Shown here: positions 34,529 to 47,591 of the stretch, piece after piece
How the letters are laid out: each line of letters starts with the position of its first letter
Position numbering within the stretch: position 1 is the first letter of the stretch
Virus record (IMG/VR): IMGVR_UViG_3300047476_001133
Span: 1 to 48,130 of that record
Strand: one strand, 5' to 3'
DNA from: a virus
Length of the DNA: 48,130 bases
Made by a program: the position numbers and the translations under genes
The notes under the pieces: generated by a model
What the model was told of the DNA's origin: nothing
Databases searched by the model: none
What the model saw: the letters and a program-made list of their open reading frames with translations, nothing else

Positions 34529-34811
34529 ACAAACCTCCACTGGAGATGTCTTTAATAATGGCCCAGAGAATTTTTGGGTACTTTTCGAACGGGATTGTGT
34601 TGGCTATGACCCATGCAACAAACCACAACTCTGGGCAAAGAATGTCTTTGAAATGTCTTTTGAAAAAGAAGCACTCGTGGTACCGGACAATGTAGTTTTC
34701 TCTTCCGTCTATCAAGTCATAGCACTCACAATAGTCATCTCTTTTACCTTTGACCTGCATGACCTTCGAGACTGATTCTTGGTTAACCCCGATAATACGC
34801 AGTGTACGCAT
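34512..34811 (-). CDS. KGxR-motif family protein with C-terminal extension
   Basis: A 99-residue protein from ATG 34811. SVSKVMQVKGKRDDYCECYD at residues 12-31 carries the family signature (V-M-x-V-K-G-K-R). The C-terminal half is aromatic (CPELWFVAWVIANTIPFEKY), unlike its neighbours. A longer frame reaching into the upstream gene is rejected as shadow. It overlaps the sigma-factor start by 17 bases. Confidence 0.6.
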   Translation of the reverse strand: MRTLRIIGVNQESVSKVMQVKGKRDDYCECYDLIDGRENYIVRYHECFFFKRHFKDILCPELWFVAWVIANTIPFEKYPKILWAIIKDISSGGLYGCKE

Positions 34812-35028
34812 TGGGCGACCCCACCAACCTCTTCTCAACATATTCGCAAAGGTGGGGGAGGAAGACACCCACCATATCTGCACCTCCTTTTAAGCCTAAA
34901 CCATGTTTGGCCGCAAAGTCCCTGTCTTCGTCAGTGTAATTGGCCACTTTGGCTACATTTTCATTGTATCTAATGTACGTATTTCTCCTACCTTTCGCCA
35001 TCATTGAAAGAGCTAAAAGGTATTTCAT
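34783..35028 (-). CDS. small KGxR-motif family protein
   Basis: An 81-residue protein from ATG 35028 (ATGA overlap). LALSMMAKGRRNTYIRYNEN at residues 5-24 is one of the clearest copies of the signature. It is followed by an acidic helix (YTDEDRDFAAKHGLGLKGGA) and a C-terminal helix. No known domain. It is co-translated with both neighbours. Confidence 0.65.
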   Translation of the reverse strand: MKYLLALSMMAKGRRNTYIRYNENVAKVANYTDEDRDFAAKHGLGLKGGADMVGVFLPHLCEYVEKRLVGSPNAYTAYYRG

Positions 35029-35219
35029 TGGAACACCTCTTTATGTATAGACAACACCAAGTAGGGGACTTGGTCTAACCTGGCAATTGCATTGGAGAGA
35101 AGGGTGCTTTCTTCTTTTGACCAAGTGGGGTGTAGATTGTCGTGACCTGTAAGAGATTCTCTTCTTCTACCTTTGGTAGACATGATAATTTGGGCACAAT
35201 ACCTTAAAGAGCGGGACAT
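35025..35219 (-). CDS. small KGxR-motif family protein
   Basis: A 64-residue protein from ATG 35219. RYCAQIIMSTKGRRRESLTG at residues 6-25 holds the signature, then HDNLHPTWSKEEST provides the later Trp/His motif shared with several members. The remainder is a short helix. Its end overlaps the next start by four bases. Confidence 0.65.
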   Translation of the reverse strand: MSRSLRYCAQIIMSTKGRRRESLTGHDNLHPTWSKEESTLLSNAIARLDQVPYLVLSIHKEVFQ

Positions 35220-35434
35220 GACAACTCCATCCCCCGCTGCCTGGCGACCTCTTTAAACAGCAATTTGAGCTGCTCTCTTACCCTGTAATCCGTTCTTATG
35301 CAACGGATAAGCAGCCTCCTCTCTGAATCCTCTAAACAAGGGCTCCAGGAATCGCCCCTCCCCTTATCTGGGGTTCTAATCCCTACGGACCTGGTACCTT
35401 TGGAAAACATCCCAATAGCTACTGCCACTCTCAT
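35204..35434 (-). CDS. small KGxR-motif family protein
   Basis: A 76-residue protein from ATG 35434. VAVAIGMFSKGTRSVGIRTP at residues 3-22 holds the signature, close to that of the member at 33817 (IGMFTKG). A Trp motif (GDSWSPCLEDSE) and a basic helix (RVREQLKLLFKEVARQRG) follow. It lies eight bases after the helicase-primase stop in the direction of transcription. Confidence 0.65.
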   Translation of the reverse strand: MRVAVAIGMFSKGTRSVGIRTPDKGRGDSWSPCLEDSERRLLIRCIRTDYRVREQLKLLFKEVARQRGMELSCPAL

Positions 35435-35442
35435 AGACCCTC

Positions 35443-37119
35443 CTATTCATACACCGTATTAAACAAACCTGTTGTGTTATCCCAATAAAGCGGGTACCTA
35501 CCTGCGTTACCAAACTCTCTGTCTTCTAGCAGGACGAGGTGCCTGAGGTTCCTTTGTTCTATGGGCAAGTCAGGGTCTCTGTTACCCTCAAGACCAAACA
35601 TGAGGTTACAAGACCGAGCCATAGCTCGGCTGCCAGCAAACTGGTTGCTCTCCACTTTGCCGCCCCTCTCATGCGGAGGTCCTGCGTCAGGGTTCCTGAG
35701 GTGGCAGAAGATGAACATCACTACATCGAGGTCAAGGGCCAAGGCCGATAAGTCCTGGGCTATCTCCTGCAGCTTAGTATTCTGGTCGGCTGAGTTCATA
35801 CCATTGACGAGGTTGGTGATTGGGTCTATGAAAATGGACTTACAACCAGCATTCGCCGCGGCATAAATGTCCTGCTTAAGTGTTTCGAAACCAAGGTGTT
35901 GGTAGAGATTGAGCATGGCTAGGTTGTGCTTAAGCAACTTACCTGCCTCCTCATAAGCCTCGGTGTCGAACGGCTTGTCAGGGTCATGGAAGAACTTGCC
36001 AGTGAGCTTGCCCGCAACCCTTTTGTAGGTCATCACATTGGCTTGTTCTGGTTTGGCCATCAACACTTTCCACCCATGTTCTTTGATGAAATGTGCACCC
36101 AAACAGTCTACAATCTCGCTCTTGCCCATCTTAGGGGCAGCCCCTATGTAGATAGTCTCACCAAGTCTAATGCCCTTGGTGGCCTCATCTACGTGCGGCC
36201 AGGGCCAAGAGAAGCCACGCACTGCTGGTTTCTTCGCGGCTTCGTGAACAGACTCGCCCCATACAATCCTTGTATTCTTAGCTTCCTCCCCCCTGAACAT
36301 GGCAGCGGAGAAGGCTGCCTTACCCTTGCCGTTGAGAAGACAGTCGTTGGCATCTTTGTCAGGCAAGGTAATCACCTTCACCCCAGGGAAGACTTTACAA
36401 ACTTCTTCCGTTGCCTCTCTGCCAGCTTTGTCATCATCAAAACACAAGCTTATATCTTGCAGCTTGAAGTGCTTGCGAATGGTGGGCATGAGTCTGCTGA
36501 GATCTCTCTTGGCAGAAGCTGCCCCGTTCGGTATAGAGCACACAGCGGGCAGCATCTCTTTGTATTGTTCTTTGGTATAGTTGAGCAGTATCTTCACCAA
36601 AGCAGGGGCATCAAACTCTCCCTCCACTATGATAAGCCTCTTAGCCCCAGAGGCTTTTGCCTGCTCCCAACCAAATAAATCAACCTCGTTGTCCACGCCG
36701 ACAGACCAAACCTTGCCGCTGGGGAGGTGCTTCACTTTGTACTTGACAACCTCCCCCTCTTTTGTGTAAGGGAAGTATGCAAAGGCAGGGGTTGTGCCAT
36801 CCTCCTCACTCACCCCCACTTTTATACCGAACACACCAAGCATCTTGGAGGACAACTTCCTTGATGGCAGGTCGAGCGAGGGAAGCGAGGAGATAAACTC
36901 CATCTCACCCAAAACCTCCTCTTTGGATTTCTTGGGTTTGACACTGAGCTTTGGCAAGTCTTTCAACGTCTTGCCCTCACCCAAAGGGTCAGCCACATAA
37001 GTTTTGCAAACGAAACAAAACCCACTCAGGCTGCCGTCTTCGTTCTCGAAGACTTGCAACCCATCGCTGCTGTTGCACTTCTCTGTTTGATGTGGAAGTT
37101 TACAAACGCAACTACTCAA
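35443..37119 (-). CDS. replicative helicase-primase (T7 gp4-like)
   Basis: This 558-residue protein combines primase and helicase. An N-terminal zinc-binding region has four cysteines (CVCKLPH ... CNSS; FCFVCKTY). The Toprim primase has RLIIVEGEFDAPAL near 170 and CFDDDKAGREA near 233. The RecA-like helicase has Walker A GAAPKMGKSEIVD near 326, Walker B SIFIDPITNLV near 430, and motif H4 with KVESNQFAGSRAMARS near 490. The start is TTG 37119, overlapping the amidoligase stop (TTGA). It would unwind the fork and prime synthesis for the polymerase at 31473. Confidence 0.92.
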   Translation of the reverse strand: MSSCVCKLPHQTEKCNSSDGLQVFENEDGSLSGFCFVCKTYVADPLGEGKTLKDLPKLSVKPKKSKEEVLGEMEFISSLPSLDLPSRKLSSKMLGVFGIKVGVSEEDGTTPAFAYFPYTKEGEVVKYKVKHLPSGKVWSVGVDNEVDLFGWEQAKASGAKRLIIVEGEFDAPALVKILLNYTKEQYKEMLPAVCSIPNGAASAKRDLSRLMPTIRKHFKLQDISLCFDDDKAGREATEEVCKVFPGVKVITLPDKDANDCLLNGKGKAAFSAAMFRGEEAKNTRIVWGESVHEAAKKPAVRGFSWPWPHVDEATKGIRLGETIYIGAAPKMGKSEIVDCLGAHFIKEHGWKVLMAKPEQANVMTYKRVAGKLTGKFFHDPDKPFDTEAYEEAGKLLKHNLAMLNLYQHLGFETLKQDIYAAANAGCKSIFIDPITNLVNGMNSADQNTKLQEIAQDLSALALDLDVVMFIFCHLRNPDAGPPHERGGKVESNQFAGSRAMARSCNLMFGLEGNRDPDLPIEQRNLRHLVLLEDREFGNAGRYPLYWDNTTGLFNTVYE

Positions 37120-38156
37120 AACCTGTCCCTCACAGTGGCTCTGGCTATATCACGCACCGCTCCCATTACACCCATATTTGCCTCCATCATGGCCGGGGTC
37201 AATGTCCGCCAAGTAGGGTCGGGGACGACGTTCGGTCCCGAGGCCTCAACTTCCAAATCTTTCTCCCCGTCAAACTCCAACGGGTCTGGGCAGACAGTGA
37301 ACTCACCTTTCTTGAAGGGGTTGGTAGAGCCAAGGCTGGCCAGGGCTGCCCAATCCTCGACGGCGTAGGCAACATCCTGAGCGCAACGCATGCCTTTGAA
37401 CAACAATGATGCCCCGTCTTCCTTGGGGAATATTTCTTCGTAACCATCAGCCCCAAAAATTTTCTTCACAAAAACTTCAGAAGACAGGTGGGAGAAATCT
37501 TCCACTACGCTGATGGGGGTGGGGTAAGAGAGGCTGGCCGACCTCAGGTTCAGCAGCAAAGCCACCCAACGAGCGACTGCCTTAAGGTCTCTCGTCCCCC
37601 TCATTGAGCGAAACTCAAGACTCCCATGCTCAACAACAGCCTTCACGTTAACGGAAGCATACCTCAAATCATCGTCGTAAAAGATTTCATGGAAGCGCCT
37701 TGTCCTGGCAGCTTTGCCAAGCCTGTGCAGCAGGTACTCTGCGTCGGAAGCTCGAAGGCAGAACAGGTTTCCTTCCCTTGTGGGACCACACCACCGAACA
37801 AGCAAATGCTCAAACACAAGGTAGAGGGTGATAAAGGTGTACAGCTGACACATGTTCATGCTTTGTACGTTGACGTGTACATGTACACCAGCCCTTATCG
37901 ACTCGTCCACCGTAGACCCAACGGATTCGTACTTGCTGTCGAGGTACTTCAGAGCTTTCATGGCATCCTCCCTTGACATAGGTCTGGCAAGGACATACTC
38001 AATGGCTTCGTCAGCCTTCAAACTCCCATCCCTTGTCATAACCCATATCTTGGCATCAGTCTTGGGCAAATTCCTGCCCTCCACCTCCACCTCGATACCG
38101 ACCTCTCCGTCCGTAAGCTTATCCGCAGGGAGTTTTAAAACATCACTTACTCTCAT
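37116..38156 (-). CDS. amidoligase (glutamine-synthetase-fold COOH-NH2 ligase)
   Basis: This 346-residue enzyme has the layout of the amidoligase family: GEVGIEVEVEGRNLP (paired acidic metal ligands), a DGSL turn, RAGVHVHVNVQSMNM (the conserved His pair), and YASVNVKAVVEHGSLEFRSM ending in RGT (nucleotide-binding arginine). The fold is that of glutamine synthetase, and the enzymes join a carboxylate to an amine with ATP. ATG 38156 has AGGAGAG upstream. It is the last gene of the peptide-ligase cluster and overlaps the helicase-primase start. The substrate is unknown. Confidence 0.82.
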   Translation of the reverse strand: MRVSDVLKLPADKLTDGEVGIEVEVEGRNLPKTDAKIWVMTRDGSLKADEAIEYVLARPMSREDAMKALKYLDSKYESVGSTVDESIRAGVHVHVNVQSMNMCQLYTFITLYLVFEHLLVRWCGPTREGNLFCLRASDAEYLLHRLGKAARTRRFHEIFYDDDLRYASVNVKAVVEHGSLEFRSMRGTRDLKAVARWVALLLNLRSASLSYPTPISVVEDFSHLSSEVFVKKIFGADGYEEIFPKEDGASLLFKGMRCAQDVAYAVEDWAALASLGSTNPFKKGEFTVCPDPLEFDGEKDLEVEASGPNVVPDPTWRTLTPAMMEANMGVMGAVRDIARATVRDRF

Positions 38157-38706
38157 TAAGACTCTCCTTCAAACTTTCCTCAAGGTACTTAAACTTACCG
38201 TCGAGGGTGGGGGTGTTGTCAACCAAACGTCCTACAACAACACCTTTGTGGGAGACCTTCCCCTTACTTGAAAGGCACCAATTGCGATGCCATGCACAAG
38301 AGTCACGACCTTTCTTACGAACCTCCGAGAGGCAGTATTGAAAGGAGGGGAACATACCACGTATGGTGTTGGCTATATACACCCAAGAACTGTTGCCAAA
38401 CCTTATAGGTCCAGCAACAGTGGTGACATTGGAGGGCCTGGTACCTTGTTTCCAATCTCTCCTCTTAGGCATCCGCATAAAATACGAGGCACAGTTTTTG
38501 AAGTTCACATACCCCAGGCTGAGGGGACTAACCTCCAAAGCTGCCAAAGGTACCCTGATAGCCTTGTTTGAGACCAGGTCTGTAGCAGTGGCAATACCTG
38601 ACGAGCTGACTCCAGCAACAAACACTGGAGTATTGTTGTAGAGAACTACAGAATCTTTGAGCCTGGTGTCTGCGTACTCAAACTCCTTCCCGTAGAAGTC
38701 ACCCAT
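38143..38706 (-). CDS. unrecognised protein of the peptide-ligase cluster
   Basis: A 187-residue protein from ATG 38706, just after the stop of the preceding ligase; a longer frame is less likely. It has a beta-rich middle (SVVLYNNTPVFVAGVSSSGI; LGYVNFKNCASYFMRMPKRR) and a basic C-terminal half with CAWHRNWCLSSKGKVSH. No catalytic motif is evident. Placed between two different COOH-NH2 ligases, it could be the modified substrate, a carrier or a partner; this is inferred from context. Confidence 0.6.
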   Translation of the reverse strand: MGDFYGKEFEYADTRLKDSVVLYNNTPVFVAGVSSSGIATATDLVSNKAIRVPLAALEVSPLSLGYVNFKNCASYFMRMPKRRDWKQGTRPSNVTTVAGPIRFGNSSWVYIANTIRGMFPSFQYCLSEVRKKGRDSCAWHRNWCLSSKGKVSHKGVVVGRLVDNTPTLDGKFKYLEESLKESLNESK

Positions 38707-38707
38707 G

Positions 38708-39565
38708 TCATGCACCCACAGCCCTGACGGGTGGGAGAGGAAGTTCAAGACCAATCTTGGTGACGACTTTCACTTCCCGGATGTCTTCGATTGTCGGCCT
38801 GGGTTTGGCAAAATCCTCGTCGATAACAATCCTGGCGTACTCCTTGTACAAATCGTACTTGTCATCTCCTTTGAACAACGCCTCGAAGGCGTCCTTGGCC
38901 CTGTCAAAAACCCAAGCCATCATCTCAGGATTGTTCACCCACACATTGGAAGGAGTGCGGTACTCGACGCCGTAGGGTTTGACCCTGTAGGCACCGGCCT
39001 TGCCGTACATAGTACGTCGTGTGGGGTCGGGGTCGCAAAGAAGAAGCGGCAGGCCCAGGTAGAAGTCGAGTTGTCGTGCCATCATGCGACAGGCTTCGAT
39101 GTGACCGGGGTCATCAGGTGCCATGCCCTTGGTCCAGCCAAGGTGGATGTGGCCTGCAGCTGTGCGGAAGTCGCGGGCACCGTCAGGCCGGGGGTTGGCC
39201 TCGCCAGTGTAGGCGTTGAAGTCGGGGTCGCACCCAAGCTCCTTGGCCTCTGGAGGTACCTCTGCCCAAGTCTCGGCATCGAAGGTGGCGACAGGCTGGA
39301 ACTTGAGTTCCACATCCTTGGGGAGCATAGAGGAGAGGGTGGAGATCACACTCGTGACGTGGTCAACAAACTGCTCACGAGTTGAGGCGGGGTCAATGTT
39401 GAATTCGGCAGCCATGCCGTCAACTTGTACAGCCCCTTTGTCTACCTTGTGTGGGGCAGACTTTGTGCCGGGAATAATCCCGTGCGCAGAAACAAACTTC
39501 TTTTTCTTCTTGTGAAAAAGAAAACCTTCCGGATCACAACCAATGGTAAGTGGCAGTATTTCCAT
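38708..39565 (-). CDS. phiEco32-like COOH-NH2 ligase, type 2
   Basis: This 285-residue enzyme is a glutamine-synthetase-fold ligase of the phage type. LTIGCDPEGFLFHKKKKKF at the N-terminus has the acidic metal site; AVQVDGMAAEFNIDPAS supplies a second; GHIHLGWTKG has the conserved His pair; and GKAGAYRVKPYGVEYRTPS carries the ATP-binding Arg/Tyr stretch. ATG 39565 has GGAGG eight bases upstream and follows the amidotransferase stop by a single base. The family (PF14395-type, as I recall) was named from phiEco32. The middle of the gene is notably GC-rich. Confidence 0.85.
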   Translation of the reverse strand: MEILPLTIGCDPEGFLFHKKKKKFVSAHGIIPGTKSAPHKVDKGAVQVDGMAAEFNIDPASTREQFVDHVTSVISTLSSMLPKDVELKFQPVATFDAETWAEVPPEAKELGCDPDFNAYTGEANPRPDGARDFRTAAGHIHLGWTKGMAPDDPGHIEACRMMARQLDFYLGLPLLLCDPDPTRRTMYGKAGAYRVKPYGVEYRTPSNVWVNNPEMMAWVFDRAKDAFEALFKGDDKYDLYKEYARIVIDEDFAKPRPTIEDIREVKVVTKIGLELPLPPVRAVGA

Positions 39566-39566
39566 G

Positions 39567-41033
39567 CTAACAACCTCCGTGCTTTGCTGAACTGTTTGAG
39601 TGTGTGATGTATTGCTTGGCAATGTCTGTGTTCGTACAATCTGGGCAGATGTATTCCTTATCGTCATACACCCATACTATGGAGGCAGCGTCTTCGGGAT
39701 GAGCTGTCATCCCACAGACACCACAACCTTGGCTGGTTGCGACAATAAAGTCTTCCTTGCACATCTTATGTCCACGACTTCCTACTGGGTATAGGACTTC
39801 GTCATCTTCGTCCCCATCTTCGTCTGAAAGGTCGCGGACGTTGAGTGTGTTAAGGCCCTTATCCACAACTATAGAGCGAAGGTCTACCAACAAGTACCGA
39901 GGTTTTTCTGAGACCTTTTTGATCTTACCACGGAACCTGAGTCCCACATGGGCTAACAACTTCCAGTCAACAGAGTGTTTCTTGGGGAAGAGGTAGACTG
40001 GGATAGAGGTGTTGCCAACAATTTGAGCTTCAATGCGGCCATTCTCTGCCCCAACAGAGTCGAATATCACCTTCACGATAGTGAATGTAATATACTCTCC
40101 AGCACCATACTTGCCCAACTTTTTACCGGCTGGTTGCTGCTGGGGTTGCTGCTGCTGGGGCTGTTGCTGTGGGGACGGCAAGACCTTTTGCTGTTGGTTG
40201 GCCGGTGGGTTGTAAACCTCTTGGAACTTCTTCCTGCGGAACCCATTGTAGCCATCATACTCTTCGAACTGATCTCCCCAAGTACTTCTATACCCACCTT
40301 TAAACACTGGAGGCACATACTCCTTGATGATGGAAACCCTTGGTTTCTGGAGAGGCTGGCCTGCAGCCCCGTTGAGGTCGAACACATAATGCATAAGTTC
40401 TGTGAACTGTCGGATTTCCCCGACCTTCATCCCCGCCTTCTGCAGTGCAATGGAAAGCATCCAAGCTTCCGACGCCCAGAAAAGACACTGACCATTCTCC
40501 GAAAGTACAAAGCACAGCGGTCTATCTTTGTTGCGGGCAAAGTTCATTGTCTTGGCTTGCTTGTCCCACCAAGTGAGGGCAAAAGCCCCGTTGATGTTTT
40601 CCAAAGTAGACTTGACATCTTCGGCACTGTTCAAGTGGGAGTACAAACTCTGACTATCCACTTGGTACAAGTGCTTGCTGTCGAAGAAATGCTGGTTGTG
40701 GATGGTGCCGTTATGTGCCCCAATAACCTTGTCAAACTCAAAGGGGTGGGCGTTATCAGCTGTTATGGCACCTCGTGTGGCCCACCTGTTGTGCCCCATC
40801 ACCACTTTGTTAATGCCGGTGAGGGCTGTCTTCCACTCTGGAGCTTCGTAAAGCATCCAAGGGGTACCCAAAGACTTCACTACCTTGGGTTTGAGATACT
40901 CTGTCTCGTTTCTCGGGACTACACACACTCCTGTGGAGTGCGGCCCCCTGCTTGTATCGAGTTCCAAAAGGAATTTAAAAACCCTTTCCTCTTGGACACC
41001 CAACGACCCCATCGCTCCGACTAATCCGCAGAT
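39567..41033 (-). CDS. class II glutamine amidotransferase, apparent AUC start
   Basis: This about 488-residue enzyme would release ammonia from glutamine. The Ntn-type catalytic domain shows GHNRWATRGAITADNAHPF and AHNGTIHNQHF. The first in-frame ATG (41012) would leave out the catalytic N-terminal cysteine. Upstream, AAGGAGG is followed by ATC TGC GGA TTA GTC GGA, encoding (M)CGLVG, the expected start. So ATC at 41033-41031 is the likely initiator; no ATG, GTG or TTG occurs in frame beyond it. The C-terminal half has a Gln/Pro linker, a beta domain and a zinc ribbon (CGVCG ... CPDC). It probably feeds ammonia to one of the cluster ligases. Confidence 0.85.
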   Translation of the reverse strand: MCGLVGAMGSLGVQEERVFKFLLELDTSRGPHSTGVCVVPRNETEYLKPKVVKSLGTPWMLYEAPEWKTALTGINKVVMGHNRWATRGAITADNAHPFEFDKVIGAHNGTIHNQHFFDSKHLYQVDSQSLYSHLNSAEDVKSTLENINGAFALTWWDKQAKTMNFARNKDRPLCFVLSENGQCLFWASEAWMLSIALQKAGMKVGEIRQFTELMHYVFDLNGAAGQPLQKPRVSIIKEYVPPVFKGGYRSTWGDQFEEYDGYNGFRRKKFQEVYNPPANQQQKVLPSPQQQPQQQQPQQQPAGKKLGKYGAGEYITFTIVKVIFDSVGAENGRIEAQIVGNTSIPVYLFPKKHSVDWKLLAHVGLRFRGKIKKVSEKPRYLLVDLRSIVVDKGLNTLNVRDLSDEDGDEDDEVLYPVGSRGHKMCKEDFIVATSQGCGVCGMTAHPEDAASIVWVYDDKEYICPDCTNTDIAKQYITHSNSSAKHGGC

Positions 41034-41077
41034 GGTACACCTCCTTACCTATTAAGTTGCTTCAATTAATGTGTGGG

Positions 41078-41422
41078 TTACACCCCGTTAGGGTTGAGCC
41101 TTTTGTACCAGAGCCGTACTCTGGTTTCTGGATGACGCGACTTCTCTGCCCATCGACTTCTTGCAAAACCGGAGGCTCTCAACACCTGCACGGCAAGCTC
41201 TTGCTGGCTGTTGGTGGAGGCCATAACAATGGCGTTACCCTCTCGCCTTGCTCTTTCCACCAATTCATTGATTGCTCTGGTGAGACCAGCCTCGGTGGTG
41301 GTGTCGTGCCCTTGGGCATCCAAGGTCCCGGCCCTTGCGTTGGCGTCAGCGGTTCGAGAGGAGCCGAGACCTACAATCATCTTCATTGTACAGCACCCAG
41401 GTACCTCATGCAATGTTGGCAT
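41078..41422 (-). CDS. short GNAT-like protein (first copy)
   Basis: This 114-residue protein starts at ATG 41422 after AGGAGGTGAGCA. Its C-terminal 50 residues match the end of an acetyltransferase fold: AIVMASTNSQQELAVQVLRA then SGFARSRW and VRLWYKRL (strand, helix, final strand with a GF turn). The N-terminal half (TLDAQGHDTTTEAGLTRAIN) is shorter than the acyl-CoA-binding half of typical GNATs. It may be a degenerate GNAT or half a two-subunit enzyme with the gene at 41588. Confidence 0.55.
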   Translation of the reverse strand: MPTLHEVPGCCTMKMIVGLGSSRTADANARAGTLDAQGHDTTTEAGLTRAINELVERARREGNAIVMASTNSQQELAVQVLRASGFARSRWAEKSRHPETRVRLWYKRLNPNGV

Positions 41423-41591
41423 TGCTCACCTCCTTCTTGTTGAAAGTTTTATCTGCCCCACACACTGTGCACCGGGCCGTTACTTGCTCTGCGGTTTTTG
41501 CTTTCTTGGTCTCGTTAAAGACCCGCACACCGGCCCCGTACTTTTCATCTTGGTACCGGTGCGCTTTACTACACCCACAATTAGCAATCAT
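41406..41591 (-). CDS. small zinc-ribbon protein
   Basis: A 61-residue protein from ATG 41591 (ATGA overlap). Cysteine pairs CGC near residue 5-7 and CTVC near residue 41-44 (CTVCGADKT), with a Lys-rich middle, indicate a zinc ribbon. It lies exactly between the two GNAT-like proteins and overlaps the next gene. It may bridge components of the cluster; function unknown. Confidence 0.6.
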   Translation of the reverse strand: MIANCGCSKAHRYQDEKYGAGVRVFNETKKAKTAEQVTARCTVCGADKTFNKKEVSNANIA

Positions 41592-42001
41592 ACAACCTCC
41601 TTCACTTTTGCTGATTTACGTTTTGGGCAAAGCTCTTTCACAAAAACTTTCACCCCCGTCTTGACAAAATGACTTGATTTTCTGTACATCCAATGCGGGG
41701 TGGAGCTAACAAAACCAAGTTCTTCGAAGATTTCTGCGCACTTTGTTTGCTCTGTGTTAAGGGTAACCATCGCTGCAGAGCACCCATCTCTTTTTGCTAA
41801 AGAGATTAGGCTCTTCACCCTCTTGACTATCTCGTTTTTCACCACTTCTTCCGAGAGTACGGTTTCCAGGTGGAGTATCTTGCCGTCTTTTGGAAGACGG
41901 CCCATACCTGCGATGGCGCAGCAGTTCAACACCCCGAGTAGCTCGTATGGGAGGCTTTCACTGAAAGAGTCAAGTAGCTCTTTTTTCTCACGCGGACTCA
42001 T
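41588..42001 (-). CDS. short GNAT-like protein (second copy)
   Basis: A 137-residue protein from ATG 42001, overlapping the ATP-grasp stop (ATGA). VLNCCAIAGMGRLP and HLETVLSEEVVKNEIVKRVK are followed by GCSAAMVTLNTEQTKCAEIF and ELGFVSSTPHWMYRKS. The strand-helix-strand with E-L-G-F is the usual C-terminal GNAT signature. The acyl-CoA-binding loop (R/Q-x-x-G-x-G/A) is not obvious. Together with the other short GNAT it forms a tandem pair in the cluster. Confidence 0.58.
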   Translation of the reverse strand: MSPREKKELLDSFSESLPYELLGVLNCCAIAGMGRLPKDGKILHLETVLSEEVVKNEIVKRVKSLISLAKRDGCSAAMVTLNTEQTKCAEIFEELGFVSSTPHWMYRKSSHFVKTGVKVFVKELCPKRKSAKVKEVV

Positions 42002-42861
42002 GCCACCACCAACTGTGCATTGTCGCACACCGCAGGGTGGATGAACTTACGGTAACCACCACGATCTTGCACCAATGGGATACGGTCCTTGCCACGAGTG
42101 AGGGCATAGTGCAGACCTTTGGCCATACACTCCTGGCGGTAGGGGCTGGTGAGGGACGGGGCAGAGTTGATCTCCAGCACATAGCAATTGCCCTCACCAT
42201 CAACCATGACATCGACACCACCGAAATCCAGGGTGGAGAGATTGAAGGCTTCAATGGAAGTCTTCACTGCCTTGAGCGGCCAGTCGCCCCAGTCCACGTT
42301 GTCGAAGCGACCGCCACGAGCTACGTTCCAGGCCACGTCTTGGGGATTGCCCGGCGTCTTCTTGGCCACAGCTACGGCACGGCCACTCACCACGAACACA
42401 CGGTACTCAGCAACCTTGTTGATGAGGAGGGAGATGTAGTACTGCGGGTAACGAGCACAGGCTGCGGCGAGTTCTGCTGTAGTGCGGCACACATGGAGGC
42501 GACGACCTTGGGCGTGTCGGTTGGGCCGAACAACAACTGGCGGCATGGTGCCCGGGCCTTCCATCACCCAGTCCTGGAAATTTTGGACACTGAACCAAGT
42601 CTTCGGGCACAAGTTGGCCTCGTTCAAGATACGCCGAAACCCAAGCTTGTCGTTCACTTGGTGGATGGCAGCCGTTGTGTTCAGCACATTGCGGATAGGC
42701 ACCTCAGAGGTGCAGCCCCAGCGGATGAGTGTGTCGTGGCCAGCAGGCACCTGCCTGTCATTCCTGATGACAGTAATAGGACTGCCAAGGGTGTTGATGA
42801 ACCTGCTTACCTCTCGGCAACTGGTGCTGCCAAGCTTACGCCGTCTGAGAAGAATCGTCAT
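41998..42861 (-). CDS. ATP-grasp ligase
   Basis: This 287-residue enzyme should activate a carboxylate as acyl-phosphate and join it to an amine. ATP-grasp features are clear: PPVVVRPNRHAQGRRLHVC (the ATP-binding lysine position carries Arg/Asn), EYRVFVVSGRAVAVAKK, and VDVMVDGEGNCYVLEINSAP with the metal-binding Glu and Asn (ExN). It resembles RimK/glutathione-synthase-like phage enzymes. It overlaps the class I amidotransferase gene by 26 bases. Confidence 0.85.
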   Translation of the reverse strand: MTILLRRRKLGSTSCREVSRFINTLGSPITVIRNDRQVPAGHDTLIRWGCTSEVPIRNVLNTTAAIHQVNDKLGFRRILNEANLCPKTWFSVQNFQDWVMEGPGTMPPVVVRPNRHAQGRRLHVCRTTAELAAACARYPQYYISLLINKVAEYRVFVVSGRAVAVAKKTPGNPQDVAWNVARGGRFDNVDWGDWPLKAVKTSIEAFNLSTLDFGGVDVMVDGEGNCYVLEINSAPSLTSPYRQECMAKGLHYALTRGKDRIPLVQDRGGYRKFIHPAVCDNAQLVVA

Positions 42862-43510
42862 TCACTGTCTCCTGTTGTGGGAAGTATCGGTCGATGAGTT
42901 GGAAGTAGTAGTTGGTGCAGGAAGTGGGGCCAAACTCGGGGTGGAACTGGACGCCGAGGGATTGTGTGGAAGCCCAGTACATAGCTTCAATATCCCCGAA
43001 GCCTACGCCGTGAGTCATCTCTTGGCCGTTCAGCATGAAACGCTTGCGGTGAGATACGTTGGCAAGGGCCACAATTCTGCCGTCAACGCCTGCTGTAGTG
43101 TTGCGTACCATCTGGTGGTGCACAGAAGACACAATGTGTTTCTCTTCTGTCTCCACGTCAATCACCAGGTGGTTGCCTGAAGCATGGCCATCTACGTCTT
43201 GGTAAAGCTTGCAACCGTTAAGGGCTGCAAACAGTTGATGTCCACGGCAGACGCCCAACATCTTTTTCTTACCCACCCAAGCTTGGTACATGTCAACTTC
43301 ATACTCATCCCTTTTAGGTGAAGCATGGGTGGTGGGGTGTTCAGCATCTTTGTACAAAGAGGGGGAGATGTCAGCCCCGCCTGTAAACTGCAGGAATTCC
43401 GCAGCCTCTGGGGTGTTGACTATTTGCCAGCCCCCTTTGTTCCTGAACATGGATTGGAACAAGCTGGCAAAAGCTTGTCCAACGATATATACCTTCCTTA
43501 CTCCAGCCAT
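42836..43510 (-). CDS. class I glutamine amidotransferase-like protein (peptidase C26 type)
   Basis: This 224-residue protein has the Cys-His-Glu triad: LGVCRGHQLF with nucleophile Cys, and GVQFHPEFGP with His and Glu. FTGGADISPSLY matches the oxyanion-side GGxD loop of gamma-glutamyl hydrolases. It could hydrolyse a gamma-glutamyl bond or transfer ammonia. ATG 43510 has AGGAG nine bases upstream. Having both class I and class II amidotransferases in one cluster suggests that one may act as a hydrolase. Confidence 0.85.
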   Translation of the reverse strand: MAGVRKVYIVGQAFASLFQSMFRNKGGWQIVNTPEAAEFLQFTGGADISPSLYKDAEHPTTHASPKRDEYEVDMYQAWVGKKKMLGVCRGHQLFAALNGCKLYQDVDGHASGNHLVIDVETEEKHIVSSVHHQMVRNTTAGVDGRIVALANVSHRKRFMLNGQEMTHGVGFGDIEAMYWASTQSLGVQFHPEFGPTSCTNYYFQLIDRYFPQQETVNDDSSQTA

Positions 43511-44436
43511 TGCTTGCACTCCTCTGCTATCTTCTGTTTCAAAATCTTGTGGTAGAACCCAGCCATCTTGGCTATTGCCACGTCAATAGGTTCGTACTCC
43601 ATCGGGATGTAACTTGCAACCACCTGGGATGCCGGCTTCGGGAAGGGGTTGTTGTACACAGACTTGGCTACAACCTCCTTGCCGTAGAAATCTACAATGA
43701 ACTGCGAGAAGGGTTTCCTGACACTGCTTTCGTAGGTATGCTGCAATGCCTTGGAGATGAACAGCTTGTTCAACCCACGGTAATGCTGGTTGACTGCCCA
43801 TGTGGAGTTTGGGGAGGACGGCTTGTGGTTGAGGAAGTTCGCAAGGGACTCCCAGTCAAAGGCCAGGGGACACACAGGGTGGTGATCTTCTTGAGGGCGA
43901 CACCACTTAATCTTGATACCGCGGTCATCACTGCTGCCTGGGTATACTGTGATCAAATTGGCAAGCAGCATAGCCACATCTTCTTCCACCCCGGCGCTGG
44001 AGAGTCCGGCAAATGTGTAGGCCAAGGCACCGTGCCTCTCCCACATACTTCTGGTGGCGACGCAGGCACCAGCCATAAGATTGCTGGGCACATGTGCTGT
44101 GATCTCGATTGAGTCTTCTGCCACGCATTTCTCAGCGTCTTTGTCCACATAGGCTGTGGCCCAGGGGCTGCGGTTGAGGAGGTAATCAAGGTAGGCCACG
44201 CGTTTTTTGGTATCTTTCACCAACAACCCTTGGCTGTTGATATTCTGGAAGGCGGCTGTAACCACACCTTCTCTGTGGCCAGCAGGAGTGAACGAACTCA
44301 ACCCGCCGTGGCAGGCAGTGTTACCAGACTCAACATAATCTGGGCCTACGGCCACCATCACAAACCTTGACACATTGATTTTGGACAAACTACCAAGCAG
44401 TTTGTCAGCCTTTTCTCGCAGTTGCTTTGTTAGCAT
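43498..44436 (-). CDS. unrecognised 312-residue protein of the peptide-ligase cluster
   Basis: The protein starts at ATG 44436, with GGGAGG upstream. It is alpha/beta in appearance, with FVMVAVGPDYVESGNTACHG near the N-terminus, SNLMAGACVATRSMWERHGA in the middle, and VCPLAFDWESLANFLNHKPS later. The conserved-looking His, Asp and Cys residues could be catalytic, but I do not recognise a family. It is the first large gene of the cluster in transcription order and is coupled to the class I amidotransferase, so it likely acts in the same pathway. Confidence 0.6.
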   Translation of the reverse strand: MLTKQLREKADKLLGSLSKINVSRFVMVAVGPDYVESGNTACHGGLSSFTPAGHREGVVTAAFQNINSQGLLVKDTKKRVAYLDYLLNRSPWATAYVDKDAEKCVAEDSIEITAHVPSNLMAGACVATRSMWERHGALAYTFAGLSSAGVEEDVAMLLANLITVYPGSSDDRGIKIKWCRPQEDHHPVCPLAFDWESLANFLNHKPSSPNSTWAVNQHYRGLNKLFISKALQHTYESSVRKPFSQFIVDFYGKEVVAKSVYNNPFPKPASQVVASYIPMEYEPIDVAIAKMAGFYHKILKQKIAEECKQWLE

Positions 44437-44575
44437 TCTTACCTCCCACAATTGTGCTTCTCACTGCCCAACGAAACTTAGCCTGAGTGGCCACCCCTTC
44501 TGAAACACCTGCTGCTTTCACAAGGGCGCGGGCCATTGTGGGCAGGTTGTCTTGGCTGACTTTCACAACTTTCAT
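44405..44575 (-). CDS. very small basic protein at the head of the peptide-ligase cluster
   Basis: A 56-residue product, ATG 44575 to TGA 44405, behind a strong GGAGGTGG. It is basic and helical (LPTMARALVKAAGVSEGVAT) and ends in a flexible Lys/Asn/Ala tail (NANKATARKG). It overlaps the next start by 32 bases. It could be a peptide substrate or regulator for the ligases, which is speculation; no family is recognised. Confidence 0.55.
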   Translation of the reverse strand: MKVVKVSQDNLPTMARALVKAAGVSEGVATQAKFRWAVRSTIVGGKNANKATARKG

Positions 44576-44590
44576 TTGCCACCTCCTCTA

Positions 44591-44875
44591 TTAAACTTCG
44601 ATCAATAACCTATCAATACTTTGTGCTCTTAATGCTTTTTTGTAACCTTGGTGCGCATACACTAACTTACTATCTTCTATGAACGTCGGAAAAATAGTGT
44701 CCCTAGGGTTGAAGGATATATCCATCAACTCGCGGTGTGAAAAAATAGACAGGCTGGCTGCGTGTGAGGACCAGACCACTGCGCTCGAAATACCAGACGC
44801 CCTGCGCCCTTTCGCCAACATGCAAATTGAGACTGCTGTGCGTAGGCACTTTTGTTTAAAGGTTGGTATCTTCAC
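44591..44875 (-). CDS. small KGxR-motif family protein
   Basis: A 94-residue protein from GTG 44875 (GTGA overlap). RTAVSICMLAKGRRASGISS at residues 12-31 is a clear signature copy, and SAVVWSSHAASL gives the Trp-Ser-Ser-His motif shared with the neighbour. The C-terminus (KKALRAQSIDRLL) resembles the ends of the next two members. It is the last of this second array in transcription order. Confidence 0.65.
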   Translation of the reverse strand: MKIPTFKQKCLRTAVSICMLAKGRRASGISSAVVWSSHAASLSIFSHRELMDISFNPRDTIFPTFIEDSKLVYAHQGYKKALRAQSIDRLLIEV

Positions 44876-45123
44876 AGCTCCTCCTCCAGTAACTCGCTTC
44901 TCAACACTTTGTTATGAGACCCTTGTTCCCGTATTGAATCCCACCCTCCAAAGAACTTATACATAGATGGGAGAAGAGAAGTATCACCTAACTCTTCGTA
45001 CATTTTGTGGGATGACCAAATCACTTTGTCCAGGTCTGACAGCTTACAACCTTTCGTAGTCATCGCGAGACTAACTACCACGCGCAGCCCTATGTTTCTA
45101 ATCTTCTTTGTCAAGTTTCTCAC
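44872..45123 (-). CDS. small KGxR-motif family protein
   Basis: An 83-residue protein from GTG 45123. RVVVSLAMTTKGCKLSDLDK at residues 14-33 has K-G-C-K in place of K-G-x-R, and VIWSSHKMYEEL follows, matching the WSSH of the neighbour. Its end, NKVLRSELLEEEL, parallels NAVLRSEKLDKED of the upstream member. Function unknown. Confidence 0.65.
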   Translation of the reverse strand: MRNLTKKIRNIGLRVVVSLAMTTKGCKLSDLDKVIWSSHKMYEELGDTSLLPSMYKFFGGWDSIREQGSHNKVLRSELLEEEL

Positions 45124-45355
45124 TCCTCAACACTGCGTTAAAAGAGCTAGGTCCCTGTGTCTCATTATACTCTGAGAAAAAATCTGAAAAAAGGTAATCG
45201 AAAATCATCTCACCAGTATTGTAAAATTCATCTTCTATTTTTTTGAAAGGCCATGAGTCTGCCCAACCTATGCAGTCTAAACTTTCTTCTTCATAACCTT
45301 TTGCAACCATGGAAATTTGCACAGCCACTTGCTCTTTTGCTGATTGGTTGTCCAT
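45098..45355 (-). CDS. small KGxR-motif family protein, acidic variant
   Basis: An 85-residue acidic protein from ATG 45355, with AGAGGT upstream. EQVAVQISMVAKGYEEESLD at residues 8-27 has the signature with K-G-Y-E, and CIGWADSWPFKK holds the Trp motif. The C-terminal ending NAVLRSEKL is shared with the next gene. It begins after a gap that may hold a promoter. Confidence 0.62.
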   Translation of the reverse strand: MDNQSAKEQVAVQISMVAKGYEEESLDCIGWADSWPFKKIEDEFYNTGEMIFDYLFSDFFSEYNETQGPSSFNAVLRSEKLDKED

Positions 45356-45430
45356 AAGTACCTCTAAAATATTTTACAAAGGTTGTAATGAAGTGGTTGT
45401 TTAAGTGGTATATAGAATATGCCAGCCCAG
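45356..45430 (-). promoter_or_regulatory. short AT-rich gap, possible leftward promoter
   Basis: This 75-base gap is one of the few in the leftward arm. On the minus strand it contains TATATA preceded by a poor -35 (TTAACT about 14 bases upstream) and an AGAGGT ribosome site near its end. A promoter is possible but spacing is not ideal, so this is a weak call. Confidence 0.25.
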
Positions 45431-45601
45431 TTAAATAATAATATTAATTATATTATTAATTAATATATCTTCTGCAACTTTGAGATTTGCTGGCTTGTTC
45501 TTAATCATACCCAGTGTGAGGTTGACAGCTTTGTTGAAATCTTTTTCATTAAGCAAGTCTTTGTAGTCTTGGGCCAGGAGCAGGAAGGATTCTTTATACA
45601 T
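45431..45601 (-). CDS. very small protein with Asn/Ile-rich tail
   Basis: A 56-residue product, ATG 45601 (overlapping the previous stop TATAA) to TAA 45431. The first 44 residues are an ordinary helical sequence (YKESFLLLAQDYKDLLNEKD; FNKAVNLTLGMIKNKPA). The last dozen are a run of Ile and Asn encoded by AT-repeat DNA (ILINNIINIII). VNLTLGMIKN is only vaguely like the neighbours' signature. No function is recognised. Confidence 0.5.
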   Translation of the reverse strand: MYKESFLLLAQDYKDLLNEKDFNKAVNLTLGMIKNKPANLKVAEDILINNIINIII

Positions 45602-45839
45602 AATATTTCTCAGCTATTCTGCAGACCTCTTTGAGGGATGACTTAGTGTGATTCATTCCTTTTATGTGGCCAAAAAAGTGGAAATATTCATCAGTAAAAA
45701 ACTCCCTTACATAACCTGGGTGTGTATTTTCCCAACCACCCACCCTCGCTATAGTGAGGGATCTGTTCCCTTTGGCAGCCATTACTCTAGCCACAGCACT
45801 CTTGCAAGCAGCGCTCACTGCAGATTGTTTACTGGACAT
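45594..45839 (-). CDS. small KGxR-motif family protein
   Basis: An 81-residue protein; ATG 45839 is preferred to GTG 45848. CKSAVARVMAAKGNRSLTIA at residues 12-31 has the signature (V-M-A-A-K-G-N-R). GGWENTHPGYVREFFTDEYF supplies the Trp-His-Pro motif and an aromatic stretch. It overlaps both neighbours. Confidence 0.65.
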   Translation of the reverse strand: MSSKQSAVSAACKSAVARVMAAKGNRSLTIARVGGWENTHPGYVREFFTDEYFHFFGHIKGMNHTKSSLKEVCRIAEKYYV

Positions 45840-46185
45840 CCACGTCACCTACCACCAATTGTTGCACACTACTCCCAAGCGGCAATGACCCTATCTTTTT
45901 CACCACCTCTTTCTTCTTCAATCCTATCCACAAAACATGGCCGACATCGGGGACATGCACTTTCTTTGCCAGCTTAGACTGCAGCAGGTGGGACAACGCT
46001 CGATGTATTCTGTTCCTGTTTGCCGGCACAACCTTAAGCTTATAGTAAAGCCCGAGGATAATATCGTCAACAGTCATTGGCTCTTCCTCGCTAAGCACGT
46101 ACCTCACTTGAGAAGTGAGCGTCGTTTTCTTTTTGCTGGTGCTCAGCAACGACTTGACTTCAGGTGGTAAAGTATCAGTATCCAC
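45829..46185 (-). CDS. winged-helix-like DNA-binding protein
   Basis: A 118-residue basic protein; GTG 46185 has GGGAG eight bases upstream and is preferred to TTG 46200. Residues 25-90 resemble a winged helix: LTSQVRYVLSEEEPMTVDDI, then NRNRIHRALSHLLQSKLAKK (recognition helix) and HVLWIGLKKK (wing). It could regulate transcription of the leftward arm. The family is not recognised. Confidence 0.5.
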   Translation of the reverse strand: MDTDTLPPEVKSLLSTSKKKTTLTSQVRYVLSEEEPMTVDDIILGLYYKLKVVPANRNRIHRALSHLLQSKLAKKVHVPDVGHVLWIGLKKKEVVKKIGSLPLGSSVQQLVVGDVDVQ

Positions 46186-47046: not shown

Positions 47047-47066
47047 GGTGTGTCCTCGTTGTGTGG

Positions 47067-47140
47067 TGTCCGCAGCAGGAGTCGAACCTGCGACCTTCCC
47101 CTTAGGAGGGGGACGCTCTATCCTACTGAGCTATGCGGGC
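47067..47140 (-). tRNA. tRNA-Arg (anticodon CCU)
   Basis: A 74-base cloverleaf on the minus strand with anticodon loop CTCCTAA, D-stem GCTC/GAGC, T-arm GCAGG-TTCGACT-CCTGC and an encoded CCA after discriminator A. The acceptor stem has six of seven pairs (one C-A mismatch at the second position). It reads AGG, a codon used heavily in this phage. Confidence 0.88.
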
Positions 47141-47496: not shown

Positions 47497-47517
47497 AAGC
47501 TACTCCTTAAAATGTGG

Positions 47518-47591
47518 TGGCCCCCATGGGATTTGAACCCACTGTCTCCCCGTTATGAGCGGGGTGCTTCTACCACTTAAGCTAAAGGGCC
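47518..47591 (-). tRNA. tRNA with anticodon CAU (Met, or Ile if modified)
   Basis: A 74-base cloverleaf on the minus strand: acceptor GGCCCTT/GGGGGCC (seven pairs, two G-U), D-stem GCTT/AAGC, anticodon stem CCCCG/CGGGG around loop CTCATAA, T-arm GTGGG-TTCAAAT-CCCAT, discriminator A and encoded CCA. Sequence alone does not settle elongator Met versus lysidine-modified Ile. Confidence 0.9.

Follow-up and report, generated by a model that had tools for sequence, protein, structure and literature searches.

Introduction

A module of ligase and glutamine amidotransferase genes that lies before the primase-helicase in phages such as PSA-HP1/RIO-1, PA11, CW02 and phiEco32 has been called a 'peptidoglycan modification cassette' that possibly prevents superinfection (PMC5498523; also PMC11945000, PMC10580990). 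The cell-wall proposal in these publications cites Iyer et al. 2009 and Hardies et al. 2013, and the literature searched holds no biochemical demonstration of the module product. In PSA-HP1 infection, the module is expressed immediately, among the early genes (PMC7082346). For SU10, a relative of phiEco32, mass spectrometry of a concentrated preparation of the phage detected three proteins listed as early gene products: an ATP-grasp enzyme, a glutamine amidotransferase, and a member of the YtfP family (PMC4281155). When a LUZ24-like phage was subjected to directed evolution, the genes of the amidoligase and of the class II glutamine amidotransferase acquired missense mutations, whose positions differed between two evolved phages (PMC11450229). 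The copy described here fills positions 37116-44575 of the IMG/VR virus record IMGVR_UViG_3300047476_001133, whose 48,130 bases are denoted as the window.

Judged from its sequence, this copy is a variant of the known module and not a new module. The module itself and the cell-wall hypothesis have been published before; what is new is the window copy, a variant set apart by its different ATP-grasp ligase and by the unusual codon at which its class II glutamine amidotransferase gene starts. In the reading preferred here, whose likelihood is somewhat short of even, the module would act in the host cytosol at an early stage of infection and make a gamma-glutamyl/amide-linked product, most likely on a peptidoglycan precursor. 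Within it, the gamma-glutamyl/amide ligation and cleavage chemistry is moderately supported, and the cytosolic peptidoglycan precursor as the most likely target is unproven.

Gene content of the module in the window

Late genes of podovirus type occupy the plus strand of the window, and its replication genes are on the minus strand. Eleven open reading frames (ORFs) make up the module region, and the primase-helicase gene directly adjoins it:

37116..38156, minus strand: AMD, Amidoligase_2, a predicted glutamine-synthetase/GCS-type ligase (Pfam PF12224, E=4e-11; phrog_7469, E=4e-80)
38143..38706, minus strand: U203, core protein of phrog_11055 (likely start ATG 38706; the 203-aa version runs from TTG 38754)
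38708..39565, minus strand: CNL, phiEco32-type COOH-NH2 ligase (PF14395, E=9e-13; phrog_3815, E=9e-79; the ORF extends to 39667)
39567..41033, minus strand: GAT2, class II-type glutamine amidotransferase (PF13522, E=4e-15; phrog_4736; ATC start)
41078..41422, minus strand: 114-aa protein of phrog_8299 (E=1e-21)
41406..41591, minus strand: 61-aa putative zinc-ribbon protein
41588..42028, minus strand: 146-aa diverged paralogue of the 114-aa protein (phrog_8299, E=0.002; phmmer to the 114-aa protein, E~0.001)
41998..42861, minus strand: RimK-like ATP-grasp ligase of a subfamily here called W (RimK PF08443, E=8e-8; phrog_2599)
42836..43510, minus strand: GAT1, class I-type glutamine amidotransferase fold, Peptidase_C26 (C26) type (PF07722, E=1e-17; likely start ATG 43510)
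43498..44436, minus strand: U317, a 317-aa protein of phrog_27195 (likely start ATG 44436)
44405..44575, minus strand: 56-aa orphan protein with a strong Shine-Dalgarno sequence
35443..37119, minus strand: primase-helicase, conserved neighbor outside the module (phrog_239, E=1e-141)

A preliminary description of this DNA had listed eleven genes directly before the primase-helicase, and all eleven are present. The amidoligase, the phiEco32-type CNL, the ATP-grasp ligase, and the class I and II glutamine amidotransferases that it had named are each matched in Pfam or PHROGs, the class I protein as the C26 type, and the two larger proteins that it had left unrecognized, U203 and U317, match unnamed phage families only. 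Its idea of amide- or peptide-bond synthesis is backed by the families, by invariant active-site residues, and by a tightly kept gene order. The term 'complete pathway' is not supported for all eleven genes: only five of them and a gamma-glutamyl-cleaving enzyme form the conserved core, the loci compared contain no homologue of the 56-aa protein, and the 114-, 146- and 61-aa proteins are sporadic. Modification of a cell-surface target, one of the possibilities that it had raised, coincides with the published hypothesis and is unproven.

Distribution and gene order

A tblastn search with the CNL of the window matched 316 phage records. Gene order was compared in 22 IMG/VR loci from a first scan, ten from a scan with the window ATP-grasp ligase, 13 contigs of metagenome-assembled genomes (MAGs), and named phages (including CVT22, PA11, CW02, UFV-P2, tf, phiEco32, 7-11, phiM6 and HP1); single loci are cited below by number (L). 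The core of GAT2, CNL, U203, AMD, and an ATP-grasp ligase is co-conserved in Zobellviridae, HMO-2011-type, LUZ24-like and phiEco32-like phages and precedes the primase-helicase in dozens of phages. Since dozens of independent phages carry homologues in matching positions, the cluster is not due to chance, and the genes are indeed kept together, as the preliminary description had supposed. In Zobellviridae and HMO-2011-type phages the order is [U317]-GAT1-GAT2-CNL-U203-AMD-ATP-grasp-primase/helicase, and in phiEco32 and LUZ24-like phages it is CNL-U203-AMD-GAT2-ATP-grasp-GGCT, the last being a gamma-glutamyl cyclotransferase. The window has CNL, AMD, ATP-grasp, and GAT2 together beside the primase-helicase, as in the published cassette, but differs in that the ATP-grasp gene lies upstream, between GAT1 and GAT2.

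Among 84,980 species genomes, no member of the CNL family was found in a clearly cellular context, which points to a virus-specific role. A second CNL gene, outside or split from the module, was observed in two loci (L055:6094-6903 and L019:7799), and a second class II glutamine amidotransferase gene follows the ATP-grasp gene in HMO-2011-type and rhizobial module phages (L019, L021, L035, L038).

The W subfamily of ATP-grasp ligases

The ATP-grasp ligase of the window shares 55-63% identity with those of ten IMG/VR phages (L047-L056; 52-61% by tblastn), compared with 20-29% for all ATP-grasp ligases of the common module type. A profile of the W subfamily, built from the window and the ten IMG/VR members with L058 and L059 outside it, gives 13 members scores of 430-525 bits and the common types at most 72 bits. 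W and common types never occur together in the loci seen. In its 13 phages the W type always precedes GAT2; the common type follows AMD, the divergent loci L022 and L040 being exceptions. A third, unassigned type, again upstream, is present on one MAG contig (L057). In a profile comparison, W and common types proved homologous (E=3e-28), and therefore the window is regarded as a variant rather than as a new module. A cellular RimK as xenologous source of the window ligase is unsupported, the W and common types aligning with each other at that same E-value; the W profile matched no RimK chain at E<=1e-3, only D-Ala-D-Ala ligases.

Predicted enzymes and their active sites

In the alignments, none of the five predicted enzymes has lost residues expected for activity, the sites of the ligases included. 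AMD is invariant in 20 homologues at E22, E24, E26, H92, H94, R127, E181 and R183 (motifs ExExE, HxH, ExR), CNL in 22 homologues at D45, E47, K69, D83, E88, H173, H175, R217, R228, K230, E235 and R237, with the motifs DxE, HxH and ExR all invariant. The conserved acidic metal-site strand and the HxH motif of both proteins are consistent with GCS/glutamine-synthetase-type ligases. Invariant residues of the window ATP-grasp ligase are K72, K168, D217, E230, and N232, i.e. the ATP-grasp lysines and an acidic D...ExN Mg site; this protein matches the NCBIfam model rimK_fam at E=1e-12, under the curated cut-off of that model.

GAT2 is invariant at Cys1, R28, R82, N107, G108, and D125 and resembles PurF/GlmS over the glutaminase domain only, with PDB and Pfam matches ending at about residue 200. 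Its C-terminal region is variable and ends in CxxC..CxxC. Since these matches include no fused synthase domain (of the SIS, PRT or AsnB type), any ammonia donation must be to another protein.

GAT1 shows the invariant triad C91, H193 and E195. Its profile ranks C26 proteins of the PDB first (Lin1909, the 'probable glutamine amidotransferase' 7d4r, and the gamma-glutamyl-GABA hydrolase PuuD), followed by carbamoyl-phosphate and GMP synthases, and its NCBIfam match is gamma-glutamyl-CDP-amidate hydrolase. GAT1 is thus likely a gamma-glutamyl hydrolase of the C26 type.

A gamma-glutamyl-cleaving partner

C26, GGCT or both are found in all module phages, as far as whole records or the genes visible in the flanks are concerned, the sole whole-record exception being L022 (the fragments L015 and L018 are cut off at the module). 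The window possesses C26, and GGCT was not found anywhere in its record. Both enzymes are rare in phages overall, with GGCT in 148 and GAT1 in 70 of 50,697 records. Their near-constant presence in module phages suggests that the pathway includes a gamma-glutamyl bond that needs cleavage. A strict alternation of C26 and GGCT is ruled out, as CW02, phiM6, and many IMG/VR phages harbor both.

Start codons

The start of GAT2 in the window is ATC (41031-41033), a few bases behind the strong Shine-Dalgarno sequence AAGGAGG. It replaces an earlier assignment to ATG 41012, with which the catalytic cysteine would be lost; the frame between the ATC and the preceding stop contains neither ATG nor GTG nor TTG. 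Among 62 module phages in which GAT2 starts were placed, 47 use ATG, seven TTG, one GTG, five ATT and two ATC. The seven with ATT or ATC are phiEco32 (L032), Klebsiella phage KpnP_VR7901 (L031), and five phages of the W clade (the window, L047, L052, L054 and L056); all have a Shine-Dalgarno-like sequence, none has an upstream ATG, GTG or TTG, and one has an upstream CTG. In phiEco32, the AUU start deduced here equals the annotated start of the coding sequence, and the catalytic N-terminal cysteine is kept. For six other genes of the same loci, 0-5 each lack a nearby ordinary start, compared with seven for GAT2; this control is rough and indicative only, as, unlike the GAT2 count, it is not anchored on a fixed N-terminal residue. 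Based on the recurrent ATT/ATC starts with Shine-Dalgarno sequences and on the control counts, recurrent weak initiation of this one gene is likely real. It may serve to limit the glutaminase or to sense initiation conditions. CNL most likely begins at ATG 39565, as indicated by homology and a Shine-Dalgarno sequence, and U203 most likely at ATG 38706.

Uncharacterized proteins

Homologues of U203 were found in 55 loci. Its AlphaFold model (pLDDT 87; residues 1-15 disordered) contains a barrel at residues 30-77 that is Tudor/KOW/SH3-like at Z about 6, a common arrangement, and the part C-terminal to the barrel gave no match in PDB fold searches. Good whole-fold viral matches are orthologues in module phages such as CW02 and Vp_R1; Bjorn and RIO-1 gave weaker matches. 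U317 has homologues in 27 loci and the invariant residues C40, S88, R127, and H183; its model, of low to medium confidence (pLDDT 68), had no PDB fold match.

The 114-aa protein belongs to a family (phrog_8299) found in 97 phage records, mainly of LUZ24-like phages, and an IMG/VR search with it returned no relative. The 114- and 146-aa proteins had been described as GNAT-like, an identity that is unsupported, because no GNAT model appears among the Pfam matches at E<=5 of eight phrog_8299 homologues, i.e. both proteins and six relatives. A homologue of the 61-aa protein is encoded directly after the ATP-grasp gene in L052.

Proposed function and alternatives

Judged by sequence, the parts at hand are two GCS-type ligases, a RimK-type ATP-grasp ligase, a PurF/GlmS-like glutaminase without a synthase domain, and a C26-type hydrolase. 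In the preferred reading, the ATP-grasp and GCS-type ligases would add amino-acid or amine units via amide bonds at alpha- and gamma-carboxyl groups, with GAT2 feeding ammonia to one of the ligases. GAT1, or GGCT in other phages, would then remove a gamma-glutamyl group, just as PuuD, BtrG, and gamma-glutamyl-CDP-amidate hydrolase cleave this group in pathways that use it as a handle or protecting group. U203 would be a module-specific core protein, perhaps a scaffold or an acceptor, and the altered precursor would make the infected cell resist superinfection. Several points weigh against this reading. Nothing found points directly to peptidoglycan, and early expression and detection by mass spectrometry do not show function. 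AMD and CNL match no PDB sequence, their GCS-type fold being assigned from sequence; profile searches of PDB sequences with these two and with U203 yielded no credible match. GAT1 could also be an ordinary ammonia donor, as carbamoyl-phosphate synthase small subunits match it as well.

An unlikely alternative is that the ligases modify a protein, extending or amidating the C-terminus of small phage proteins or of a host protein, by analogy with RimK, which extends ribosomal protein S6. The ATP-grasp ligase is closest to RimK, and in Citrovirus phages small proteins interleaved with the module end in a phage-specific tag. Such acidic or LENx tags occur on many small proteins of the following phages and of several IMG/VR relatives (tag-bearing loci: L024, L031, L077, L046, L033, L035, L038, L021, L051, L053, L054, L056 and L059):

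LENE: CVT22 (L024:26001-43249), 17 proteins
LENK: VR7901, 7 proteins; Klyazma, 9 proteins
LEND: Pecta, 12 proteins
EENV: CW02; EETL: phiM6
[DE][DE]DI: RHph_N3_13 and L021, about 14 proteins each
LEEYM, LED[WY]M, LEDYL (EDWM/EDYM/EEYM): W-clade relatives

No comparable repetition is seen in tetrapeptides located 20 residues before the protein end. The tag codons partly overlap the Shine-Dalgarno sequence of the next gene, which speaks against a role of the tags in protein modification; they nevertheless vary synonymously at fixed residues (Asn as AAT/AAC, never AAA/AAG; Ile as ATC/ATA/ATT), and this argues for selection on the protein despite the overlap. Tags are missing in T7, SIO1, PA11, UFV-P2, tf, the first 50 kb of phiEco32, and the small proteins of the window; their absence from the window, PA11, LUZ24-like phages, and the phiEco32 segment, most of which have the same module, counts against protein modification, for which no evidence was found. 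A more specific form, in which the module would be a C-terminal protein/peptide-conjugation system whose ligases act on ribosomally made small phage proteins, the genome-specific C-terminal tag marking carriers or substrates and GAT2 being held back by its recurrent AUU/AUC or TTG starts, is decidedly unlikely; as the window has no tags, the acceptor there would have to be another protein such as U203.

Salvage is an unlikely explanation, too: the enzymes would recycle glutathione, other gamma-glutamyl compounds, and nitrogen for phage growth, and there would be no biosynthetic pathway. GGCT and C26 enzymes do degrade gamma-glutamyl compounds, and a role in nitrogen metabolism was proposed for phage ZRK32 (PMC10945688), but three ATP-consuming ligases always accompany the cleaving enzymes, a high cost for salvage, and known enzymes with solved structures are only distantly related to the two GCS-type ligases. 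A DNA base hypermodification protecting the phage genome, as suggested by the adjoining replication genes and by the amide chemistry and amidotransferases of some phage DNA-modification pathways (PMC6884629), is very improbable, given that DNA of the module phage tf is cut by RsaI, HpaI, EcoRV, SmaI and HaeIII and was cloned (PMC3517423), that DNA of the LUZ24-like phage U17 is sensitive to 11 of 16 enzymes (PMC11945000), and that no nucleotide hypermodification gene was found among the window proteins searched.

The module occurs in hundreds of phage records from many hosts, marine HMO-2011-type phages among them. Now that the core is defined, that a gamma-glutamyl-cleaving enzyme is seen to recur, and that two alternative ATP-grasp subfamilies and the rare glutaminase start are recognized, a vague cell-wall idea becomes testable in laboratory phages such as tf, PA11 or phiEco32.

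Other features of the window

Seven small paralogues with a common 'M..KG' motif are located on both sides of the module (34783-35434 and 44591-45848). The leave-one-out profile score of each beats 1000 of 1000 shuffles, and no relatives of them were found in the other loci. Genes for tRNA-Arg(cct) and tRNA-Met(cat) lie at 47064-47140 and 47515-47591, near the right end of the record. PADLOC reported no defense-system match in the window, and the phage collection contains no direct DNA relative of it.

Comparison with known systems

Cellular pathways that employ a gamma-glutamyl handle, i.e. Puu (PuuA/PuuD), butirosin (BtrJ/BtrG), and methyl phosphoramidate (Cj1416-1418), pair an ATP-dependent enzyme with a gamma-glutamyl-cleaving C26/class I or GGCT enzyme. 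Their enzyme families and gene content differ from those of the module; the likeness lies in the combination of enzymes, and a homologous cluster is not in evidence. Among phages, the cassette of PSA-HP1/RIO-1, PA11, CW02, and phiEco32 (PMC5498523) matches the window in its gene families and its position before the primase-helicase. Compared with it, the window has an upstream W-type ATP-grasp ligase in place of the downstream common type and lacks GGCT; a zinc-ribbon protein and a pair of phrog_8299 paralogues are encoded between its GAT1 and GAT2 genes. PA11 and CVT22 share the core order GAT1-GAT2-CNL-U203-AMD with the window. The arrangement in UFV-P2, tf and phiEco32 has the CNL-U203-AMD block, the class II glutamine amidotransferase, and an ATP-grasp ligase in common with the window, but GAT2 follows AMD, a GGCT adjoins the ATP-grasp gene, and a C26-type GAT1 is missing.

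The arrangement closest to that of the window is found on the IMG/VR contig L047 (3300021440_000085), with the order U317-GAT1-ATP-grasp(W)-two small phrog_8299-like proteins-GAT2-CNL-U203-AMD-primase. A GGCT gene without counterpart in the window (L047:9585-9974) lies there between GAT1 and the ATP-grasp gene, whose product is about 60% identical to that of the window, and GAT2 starts with ATC in both.

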